From contig JAHOYU010000116.1 in NCBI GenBank assembly GCA_019038625.1, positions 1 through 56,214 of the forward strand: 56,214 bases of DNA, given 5' to 3'. The position numbers and the translations under genes are program-made. Positions 51,286 to 53,315 of the stretch are shown here, piece after piece. This DNA is from Candidatus Latescibacterota bacterium. GTDB lineage: Bacteria; Krumholzibacteriota; Krumholzibacteriia; Krumholzibacteriales; Krumholzibacteriaceae. The notes beneath the pieces were generated by a model. It searched no databases. It saw nothing but the letters and a program-made list of their open reading frames with translations, and was not told the DNA's origin. Each line of letters opens with the position of its first letter. Position 1 is the first letter of the stretch.

Positions 51286-51432
51286 AGTAAAGAAAGTTAA
51301 CGCGGAATCAGAATTTTTTACTCAAGCATTTATTTGGGGCTTAGGGGTAGTTTAGTCCCCGATTATGGTCTTCTCGAACCTATTTAATATCAACAGGTTG
51401 CAGGCTCGACCCTCCGTCGGGCTTTTTTCGTC
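51286..51432 (+). other. Gene-less stretch before the candidate small RNA
   Basis: Holds an AACCT-N13-AGGTT hairpin followed by the terminator at 51404, and a GGGG-N9-CCCC dyad (51344-51360) about 110 bp before the predicted small-RNA start. No tRNA fold was found. Confidence 0.5.
51404..51428 (+). terminator. Intrinsic terminator of the small secreted protein gene
   Basis: GCTCGAC (51404-51410), loop CCTCC, GTCGGGC (51416-51422) with one G-U pair, then six T (51423-51428). Confidence 0.82.
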
Positions 51433-51448
51433 TTGGTACGGCTCTTGC
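51433..51448 (+). promoter_or_regulatory. Sigma54-type (-24/-12) promoter of a candidate small RNA
   Basis: TTGGTACGGCTCTTGC: GG (51435-51436), exactly 10 bp, GC (51447-51448), TTGG-ACG and TTGC boxes present. It lies 4 bp after a terminator T-run, so it begins a new unit. Start predicted near 51460. Confidence 0.66.
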
Positions 51449-51459
51449 GGTTATAAGTG

Positions 51460-51587
51460 TTTGCCCGCGGTAACAGGAAGATGTGTGGCTGAGGGATAAC
51501 AACCTATCCGGTAGTATGGGCGGCTCGCCGCCGGACCGCTGTCGGGTTCAGTTATCGGAAAAGGAGGCTTTAGAGCCTCCTTTTTTT
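51460..51587 (+). ncRNA. Candidate sigma54-dependent small RNA, about 128 nt
   Basis: Bounded by the sigma54-type promoter and a strong intrinsic terminator, with no credible coding frame. Visible structure: GGATA-N6-TATCC (51494-51509), GGCGG-CTCG-CCGCC (51519-51532), a closing helix TAAC (51471-51474) with GTTA (51551-51554) extended by CCG (51465-51467) with CGG (51556-51558), then the terminator hairpin. No known RNA family (6S, SRP, tmRNA, RNase P, tRNA-Sec) was recognised. The evidence is motif-based only. Confidence 0.5.
51561..51587 (+). terminator. Intrinsic terminator overlapping the rqcH stop
   Basis: AAGGAGGCT (51561-51569), loop TTAG, AGCCTCCTT (51574-51582) within a seven-T run (51581-51587). 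The loop contains the rqcH stop codon (minus strand TAA, 51570-51572), and the A-run before the stem is weak as a U-tract for the other strand. Confidence 0.88.
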
Positions 51588-53279
51588 CTTATTATCGTCA
51601 GGCAGAACAGGGGTGACGAAGAGAGTCTTCTCTCTCTGGCAGCTTGCTGTTCCCGGCCTCGATTTTCTGGGCTTGCGGACATATCGTTTTTCGGTGTAGA
51701 TCACAGGTACAGTAGATGAGTTTCTTCCCTTGCTGAAATAAGCGGCGACCGAGGCAGCGATCTCGATGAGTCTTCGGGGAGTCGAGTTGTCGGCACCGGC
51801 AAGGAGGACATGGGATCCGGGGAGTCCCTGCGCGTGAAACCAGAGGTCGGAAGGTGAGGCGAACCTGTGGGTGAGAGTATCGTTCTCACGGTCATTACGT
51901 CCGACGTACACCGTATGTTTCTCGTCGAGCCTGAAACTTCTGAAGGGAGGTTTTCTGTCCCCGCTGTTTTTGAGATCTTTTCTTTCGCCCGGCGGTGCCG
52001 GCAACAGGGCAAGAAGATTATCCAGTGTCATCGATTTTTCGATTCTCTCGAGCCCCTTCTCTGCTTCCGACAGATTCCGCCTGATGGCTACTCGCCTGTT
52101 TCGAATGACCAACAGGCCCTTTTCGCCTTTTCTCGCTTTTTTAAAATATGAGCGTATGTTCCTGTCAGGGTCGAGAGCGGGATCGAGACTGATGGTGATC
52201 TCTGACTCGCCGGAATAATCTTTCACCGTGATACTGTCCATCCCTCTTCTTAAAAGATGGTGGTATGTGGTAAGGAGGTTGCCGAACTGCCTCATTTCCT
52301 CGAACTTCGATGCTGATTTGAGGTCGGCATCGAGATTGGACAGGAGTTTTCTGGTTTTCCTTACATCCTGCCTGACCGGTTTTGATACGGTCCTTCGCAG
52401 GTAGGCAGTATAGTCCGGCATCATTCTTTCTTTCGTCATGATGTCGAGAGCCTGCAGAAGATCGGATGATGTCCCTGGCCTGGCTTCGAAAGGCAGATCG
52501 ACAGGATAAAGATGGCAGGTATCGCTGCCTGGCGACCCGGGAAAATCGAATATTCTCCAAGAGAACTGTTTCTTGTCCAGATGCCCCGATATTTTTCCAA
52601 GCTCAGCCCACAGCAAATCCGGGTCGCCGGGAAATGAAGATATTAACATCTCCGCTACGGCCGGATCGATGCCGGCAATATAGTCGATGAGGACTCTGGA
52701 AGGATTGCCGCCCGGACTTTTCGATGGCGTTTCTTCGGTTGCCGGCACAGGGGACCTATCCTCCAGCAAGGTTCCAAGGTTATCCGGTATCACCGGCGGC
52801 AGTGAAAGCAGGGAGTATAGTTTTTCTGGAGGAAGCTGATCCGGAGAGGACGGCAATCTTGATCGGGCCGCACCCGAAGTCATCACGGGCCTGTTTCCTT
52901 CGCCCCGGAAGATAGAAAAAGCCTTTCCTCCTGGAGACAGGTCGATCCGGAGGGTAAAAGCAATATCAGTTCCCCAGCTACCCTCTCCGGAAAGGGAGAA
53001 GAGGATCACCCTTTCCACTCCGAGTGGCCTGACGGATTCCACGCGCGTTCCCGCTGCCTGCGCGAAGGCTTCATCCAGGTATTTAGAGGGGATCAGGATA
53101 TCATTCGATATGGCGATCCCGGCTTCCCTGGCGAAGTGGAATATGTGGAGGTGCATCTCCCGATCCCCGTCCAGCGAGACTACCGTGCCACCCGGGAATC
53201 TCCGGATGGAACGTACGGGAGTCCCCGGCAGGATTTTTCCCAGTTCGATTCCCAGCGCGTATGCCGTCATTCCGTTCAT
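51570..53279 (-). CDS. rqcH: NFACT family ribosome rescue factor (RqcH/Rqc2-like)
   Basis: 569 residues from the ATG at 53279 (MNGMTAYALGIELGK), chosen because the promoter -10 box covers the ATG at 53291. NFACT-N domain about 1-200, coiled-coil helices about 270-420 (RQDVRKTRKLLSNLDADLKSA, EAEKGLERIEKSM), NFACT-R about 440-560 with VYVGRNDRENDTLTHRFA, DLWFHAQGLPGSHVLL and a basic tail. RqcH binds split 50S subunits carrying peptidyl-tRNA and adds Ala tails. Older annotations call it a fibronectin-binding protein. The last residues, KKRRL, are encoded by the terminator. Confidence 0.92.
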   Translation of the reverse strand: MNGMTAYALGIELGKILPGTPVRSIRRFPGGTVVSLDGDREMHLHIFHFAREAGIAISNDILIPSKYLDEAFAQAAGTRVESVRPLGVERVILFSLSGEGSWGTDIAFTLRIDLSPGGKAFSIFRGEGNRPVMTSGAARSRLPSSPDQLPPEKLYSLLSLPPVIPDNLGTLLEDRSPVPATEETPSKSPGGNPSRVLIDYIAGIDPAVAEMLISSFPGDPDLLWAELGKISGHLDKKQFSWRIFDFPGSPGSDTCHLYPVDLPFEARPGTSSDLLQALDIMTKERMMPDYTAYLRRTVSKPVRQDVRKTRKLLSNLDADLKSASKFEEMRQFGNLLTTYHHLLRRGMDSITVKDYSGESEITISLDPALDPDRNIRSYFKKARKGEKGLLVIRNRRVAIRRNLSEAEKGLERIEKSMTLDNLLALLPAPPGERKDLKNSGDRKPPFRSFRLDEKHTVYVGRNDRENDTLTHRFASPSDLWFHAQGLPGSHVLLAGADNSTPRRLIEIAASVAAYFSKGRNSSTVPVIYTEKRYVRKPRKSRPGTASCQREKTLFVTPVLPDDNKKKRRL

Positions 53280-53286
53280 CCGCGGT

Positions 53287-53315
53287 ATCATAATGTGAGG
53301 GGAGGCACATGTCAA
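53287..53315 (-). promoter_or_regulatory. Promoter giving a leaderless rqcH mRNA
   Basis: Minus strand TTGACA (53310-53315), 17-bp spacer, TATGAT (53287-53292), near consensus. The next ATG, at 53279, falls 7 bases after the -10 box, at the expected first base of the RNA. Confidence 0.72.

Follow-up and report, generated by a model that had tools for sequence, protein, structure and literature searches.

A near-consensus sigma54 promoter followed by a free-standing small RNA, here called sRNA1, is predicted between a secreted-protein gene and rqcH in the window (the whole stretch of 56,214 nt that was analysed). Most likely, sRNA1 is a regulatory small RNA (sRNA) within the small regulon of a sigma54 activator that carries TPR and GAF domains. 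The conservation, architecture, fixed geometry and common palindromes of the locus were established by comparing the sequences of related genomes, and the features involved are listed in Table 1.

In the model that we favor, to which a probability of roughly three in four was assigned, sigma54-RNA polymerase would transcribe sRNA1 as a stand-alone regulatory RNA, and an activator bound to a palindromic enhancer ~166 bp upstream would loop over to open the promoter, probably aided by bending of the DNA at an IHF-like sequence. This activator would most likely be a large enhancer-binding protein (kinase-like N-terminus, TPR, GAF, sigma54 AAA+, and Fis-type helix-turn-helix) that uses the same palindromes to repress its own gene and also drives a second RNA, sRNA2, encoded after the pyruvate kinase gene. 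sRNA1 would end at its own terminator and carry a 5' hairpin with a covarying stem and the invariant loop GGUAACAGGAAGA, this loop being the part predicted to contact target RNAs or a protein. Transcription of sRNA1, identity of the activator, and function of the loop are the elements of the model that we infer.

A sequence-only reading of the window had already proposed a sigma54-driven, free-standing sRNA in an FCB-type phylum. That proposal is now supported by the retained GG/GC elements and RNA core, by covariation in the 5' hairpin, by the upstream enhancer, and by the lack of an Rfam match. Under this model, the range of sigma54-controlled sRNAs would widen by a phylum, and two candidate RNA families (sRNA1 and sRNA2) that are absent from Rfam would be added. 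An uncultured FCB-type phylum would thereby gain a testable regulatory RNA family for which promoter, enhancer, likely activator, and partner RNA are named.

Table 1. Features of the sRNA1 locus (positions in the window) and of associated loci in family genomes
Feature	Position	Strand	Remarks
Small secreted protein gene, 123 aa	50914..51285	+	ends ...TETGYAEK; upstream neighbor in 9/9 sRNA1 genomes
Predicted enhancer palindrome GTAAAGAAAGTTAAC (GTWAA-N5-TTWAC)	51287..51301		directly after secreted-gene stop codon; center 166 bp before predicted +1
Second enhancer half-site TTTAC	51317..51321	+	20 bp from TTAAC of first palindrome
IHF-like site TATCAACAGGTTG (consensus WATCAANNNNTTR)	51388..51400	+	center 41 bp before GG; exact in window
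Terminator of secreted-protein gene	51402..51428	+	hairpin 51402-51424 and T-run; similar hairpin-T tract in several relatives
Sigma54 -24/-12 promoter TTGGTACGGCTCTTGCG	51433..51449	+	GG 51435-51436, ten bases, GC 51447-51448
Predicted small RNA sRNA1, ~128 nt	51460..51587	+	start inferred
5' hairpin P1	51462..51490	+	stem 51462-51468 with 51483-51490, one bulge; loop 51469-51482 (GGUAACAGGAAGAU)
Variable domain closed by helix P2	51495..51556	+	P2 = 51495-51500 with 51551-51556
sRNA1 intrinsic terminator	51557..51587	+	hairpin 51557-51586, then T-rich tail
rqcH (NFACT family)	51570..53315	-	convergent downstream neighbor; gene calls and family match
Large sigma54 activator, TPR/GAF/AAA+/Fis	L240:4213-8847, also L241, L242, L243		downstream of PTS EIIA and zinc-ribbon genes
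sRNA2	L220:1722-1925 (G000:C78), also L216, L211, L205		after pyk; conserved non-coding, sigma54-like promoter

Predicted sigma54 promoter, neighboring genes and distribution in the family

Both strands of the window were scanned by using a custom weighted sigma54 pattern, and the promoter of Table 1 received the top score (27.4, with the runner-up at 26.5). The near-consensus -24/-12 element of the sequence-only reading, with GG at 51435 and GC at 51447 ten bases apart, was thus confirmed as the best sigma54 match in the window. The strict pattern TTGGYAYGNNNYTTGC had two matches in the 3.78-Mb genome, and a control pattern had one. The second strict site (L190:1500-1640) lies between a gene for a PilR-like response regulator/activator and the type IV pilin gene (pilA), a textbook sigma54 target; this position validates the consensus for this organism. 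The rpoN gene was found in all 20 genomes of the family.

All nine sRNA1 loci carry GG at -24 and GC at -12 with ten bases between them and near-consensus flanks, and in the promoter alignment TTGC is invariant. The predicted start at 51460 was placed on the basis of the 12-bp spacing to the -12 element and the onset of sequence conservation. The -12 element and the loop core are 20-23 nt apart in 9/9 genomes, as a transcription start immediately 5' of the hairpin would predict. An IHF-like site occupies the same slot, 40-43 bp before the GG, in eight of the nine genomes (0-4 mismatches). The order of enhancer, putative bend, and -24/-12 element seen here is typical of sigma54 promoters; a role for this site as the bend between enhancer and promoter is suggestive only. 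The upstream secreted protein matched no NCBIfam family and had only a sub-threshold Pfam match; no sigma54 promoter was seen for its gene, which has a TATATT-type box instead.

By using blastn against relatives, the conserved stretch was delimited to the promoter and the 5'-terminal ~45 nt of the RNA. A model of this stretch, built from primary sequence, was searched against 20 genomes of one Candidatus Krumholzibacteriota family and identified one strong locus each in nine of them, spanning eight genera (E values of 2e-18 to 4e-12). The same model returned nothing below E 0.03 in 60 other genomes of the phylum. The gene order selB, ispG, secreted protein, RNA, and convergent rqcH is kept in every carrier. 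The earlier concern that close relatives might lose GG and GC while keeping the surrounding genes was answered in these eight genera, where GG/GC and the RNA core are kept together with those genes.

sRNA1 was absent from 11/20 family genomes, some of which are incomplete assemblies. Promoter and RNA core are both gone from G017 and G015 with the flanking genes retained, so in these relatives loss of the promoter was accompanied by loss of the RNA; G017 is congeneric with two carriers. Its intergenic region (L175), which keeps the enhancer boxes and is missing the promoter and RNA 5' domain, represents a natural sRNA1 deletion. The neighbor genes are only ~70 bp apart in G002 and G019. In one carrier (G014, L147), sRNA1 is separated from rqcH by additional DNA, in which a TetR-like reading frame appears to begin.

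When 84,980 genomes were scanned with a pattern, 63 stretches matched, with ~140 chance matches estimated for uniform random sequence; six of the 63 were Krumholzibacteriota loci already identified. Nine bacterial matches from outside the Krumholzibacteriota and two viral matches were inspected as possible cross-phylum homologues and rejected, being without the promoter-RNA unit; the remaining matches were treated as chance. Viral contigs gave 27 pattern matches, none scoring like the full unit.

Fold and extent of sRNA1

The predicted transcript folds at z = -3.0, with 0/200 shuffles as good. Covariation among relatives, on which the sequence-only reading had staked its proposal, was found in the P1 stem: with the alignment arms excised and registered by hand, which favors structure, 91% of cells were paired, two pairs showed double changes, and the covariation score was matched by 3/500 shuffles. 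The P1 loop has the invariant core GUAACAGGAAGA and reads GUAACAGG(A/G)A(A/G)A across relatives. For P2, registered in the same way, 97.6% of cells were paired in seven genomes (G008 and G014 were omitted from the count on account of their shorter, different middle domain), the replacements were mostly G-U with one double change, and the shuffle test was non-significant (145/500). When the RNA of the window is folded alone, the structure of lowest energy has a 5' hairpin that differs slightly from P1.

Terminator-like hairpins were found on both sides of the unit, as the sequence-only reading had described. A terminator hairpin with T-rich tail follows the RNA in 9/9 genomes, with diverged sequence, and predicted lengths of sRNA1 range from ~97 to 142 nt. 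The long-range closing helix proposed there (51471-51474 with 51551-51554) had to be rejected. Its 5' arm sits inside the invariant P1 loop and is unchanged even in G008 and G014, both of which are without the GUUA 3' arm; the conserved closing helix is P2. A small peptide was also rejected, given that relatives share no common reading frame, which agrees with the earlier view that no believable gene lies between the predicted start and the terminator. The suggested antisense overlap with the 3' end of rqcH exists in the window, where the rqcH stop falls at +111, and is not a conserved feature: the stop lies beyond the sRNA1 terminator in G001, G005, G009, and G012 (+171 to +185; positions for G008 and G014, the latter with its extra DNA, were left out).

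An Rfam scan, proposed earlier as a check, was run, and no covariance model came near its gathering score for sRNA1, even in lax mode. Searching nine genomes for exact matches to the loop complement (CTTCCTGTTAC) gave 18 sites, eight of which were the RNA itself; the others lie in or near genes, with no target common to the genomes.

Predicted enhancer palindrome, candidate activator and second RNA

The palindrome GTWAA-N5-TTWAC is predicted to be an activator-binding enhancer at a fixed distance from the promoter. It is exact in five of the nine genomes and has one mismatch in the other four; its center lies 165-167 bp from +1 (169 in G010), and the second half-site keeps its 20-bp spacing from the palindrome's TTWAC box in 8/9. 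Identity of the spacer between enhancer and promoter is only ~42% in the same nine genomes. In the window's genome, the strict two-box pattern occurs only once. Within 274 kb of collected loci, 15 exact palindromes were observed against 0.6 expected, an enrichment that is descriptive since the loci were selected partly for carrying the palindrome. Thirteen of the 15 fall at three kinds of locus, namely sRNA1, sRNA2, and the activator gene.

In 11 genomes, among them G004 and G017, which are both without the RNA, the enhancer model R2 matched the sRNA1 locus with E values no higher than 1.2e-5. Several weaker matches (individually E 0.006-0.5) are orthologous to each other, one set lying after pyk and before the second conserved RNA and another before the activator gene. 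Extra exact palindromes overlap or adjoin the ispG stop, upstream of the secreted-protein gene, in G008 (L146:10677-10691) and G014 (L147:4910-4924), and a one-mismatch palindrome occurs between the enolase gene and a sigma factor gene at L248:1828 (G005:C137).

In seven genomes, palindromes precede the gene for a protein of up to 1,544 aa, at 13-51 bp from its first start codon, and overlap a TTGaaa-N17-TAAAGT box that we read as the promoter of this gene. The suggested link between palindrome and activator is drawn from these seven relatives, the window's own genome not being among them. The protein has a Sigma54_activat match (2e-65), the motif ESELFGHEKGSFTGA, and a Fis helix-turn-helix. 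HTH_8 was located at residues 1505-1534 of the G008 sequence (E 3e-4, narrowly missing the cut-off); in the remaining three, the available sequence is truncated before this region. The GAFTGA-type loop reads GSFTGA in G008 and G006, GAFTGA in G002, and GSFTSA in G009. Walker B reads LNEI, with the Asp replaced by Asn in 4/4 aligned sequences, which is unusual. The N-terminus looks like a degenerate kinase lobe, with no Pfam kinase among the matches listed, and no receiver domain was seen. In G008, genes for PTS EIIA and a zinc-ribbon protein precede the activator gene in the same orientation.

sRNA2 is present in G000, G014, G007, and G016. Its promoter, TGGCAYG-N4-TTGAT, lies 213-218 bp after a palindrome and has TTGAT, not TTGC, as the -12 element. 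The enhancer distances of the two RNAs would differ by ~74 bp, near seven helical turns. sRNA2 consists of TTGAGCCCGCGG, a C-run, a CCGAAGG/CCTTCGG hairpin with GAGCAGC, and a terminator; hairpin and terminator are the helices kept in the alignment. It had no match in Rfam, and its single-sequence fold was not exceptional (z -1.3). Pairing between sRNA1 and sRNA2 was considered and rejected, as it was within shuffle range in G000, G007, and G014. Citrate lyase genes lie downstream of sRNA2 in G000.

Alternative readings and known systems

An autoregulated activator with two sRNA targets is the simplest reading of the palindromes. If sRNA1 were real and sigma54-driven, they could also be operators of another regulator, with the large activator gene merely a target and sRNA1 driven by some unknown enhancer-binding protein. 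At the activator gene, the palindromes do overlie a sigma70-like promoter, a position that would suit a repressor site, and weak enhancer matches also occur near eno/a sigma factor gene (L221) and groEL (L212). This arrangement is nevertheless considered unlikely; the fixed distance to two sigma54-type promoters, together with the presence of the site before a sigma54-activator gene, is best fitted by one autoregulated activator. The links to PTS and pyruvate kinase suggest, as a guess, a carbon or PEP signal. A dedicated regulon, in which an autoregulated TPR/GAF activator tied to PTS EIIA switches on sRNA1 and sRNA2 via the palindrome, is a tentative proposal, plausible but somewhat short of probable; if true, PEP/carbon status would be coupled to RNA-based control in an uncultured phylum.

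Two further readings concern the RNA itself. The conserved element might be a protein- or ribosome-binding decoy that titrates CsrA or a comparable protein, its loop UAACAGGAAGA imitating a Shine-Dalgarno or CsrA site; the loop is purine-rich, invariant, and contains GGA, and csrA was found in the window's genome. However, sRNA1 has one conserved GGA, in a CAGGA context, rather than several ANGGA loop motifs, and csrA was found in only 4/9 sRNA1 genomes (not in G001, G007, G008, G012, and G014, all MAGs in which single absences are uncertain). A CsrA sponge was rejected as a general explanation on the latter count, and we regard the decoy as rather improbable. More doubtful still is a promoter/UTR fossil, a sigma54 promoter that once drove a downstream gene and whose transcript is functionless. 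The unconserved middle of sRNA1 and the loss of the locus in several relatives would suit such a fossil, but conservation of the loop exceeds that of the promoter spacer, covariation is seen in the stem, the terminator is kept in 9/9 genomes, and the downstream rqcH is convergent.

The favored reading, a sigma54-driven regulatory sRNA, is of a known kind, represented by Qrr, GlmY, and CrcZ; NcS25 of Burkholderia is reportedly another example. A literature search combining the phylum name with small RNA found no paper for Krumholzibacteriota. That such sRNAs are known in Gammaproteobacteria and Pseudomonas, as the sequence-only reading stated, is correct but too narrow a range, since Pxr of Myxococcus lies beyond the Gammaproteobacteria (PMC5568312).

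In the available parts of the sources, several Qrr sRNAs of Vibrio are placed under one sigma54 activator, LuxO, with upstream enhancer sites (PMC2680268, PMC10162802). The same combination is predicted for the sRNA1 system, which differs in phylum, in matching no Rfam family, and in having a TPR/GAF candidate activator with no receiver seen. GlmY/GlmZ of enterobacteria (QseF=GlrR/sigma54) combine a sigma54 promoter, upstream activating sequences, and a two-sRNA arrangement, according to the portions available (PMC6075780, PMC7073468); these traits are likewise predicted here, whereas sRNA1 is without an Rfam match and its enhancer is GTWAA-N5-TTWAC. For Flavobacterium psychrophilum, an FCB bacterium in which sigma54 -24/-12 promoters have been mapped, the targets named in the accessible part of the paper are protein-coding, and no sigma54 dependence is ascribed there to the sRNA Rfp18 (PMC9723704). 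Pxr, likened to sRNA1 by description and not by sequence, is a multi-hairpin sRNA in a fixed gene neighborhood, apparently transcribed from a sigma54 promoter (PMC5568312). It sits downstream of the activator gene nla19, whereas the likely activator gene of sRNA1 lies elsewhere in the genome.
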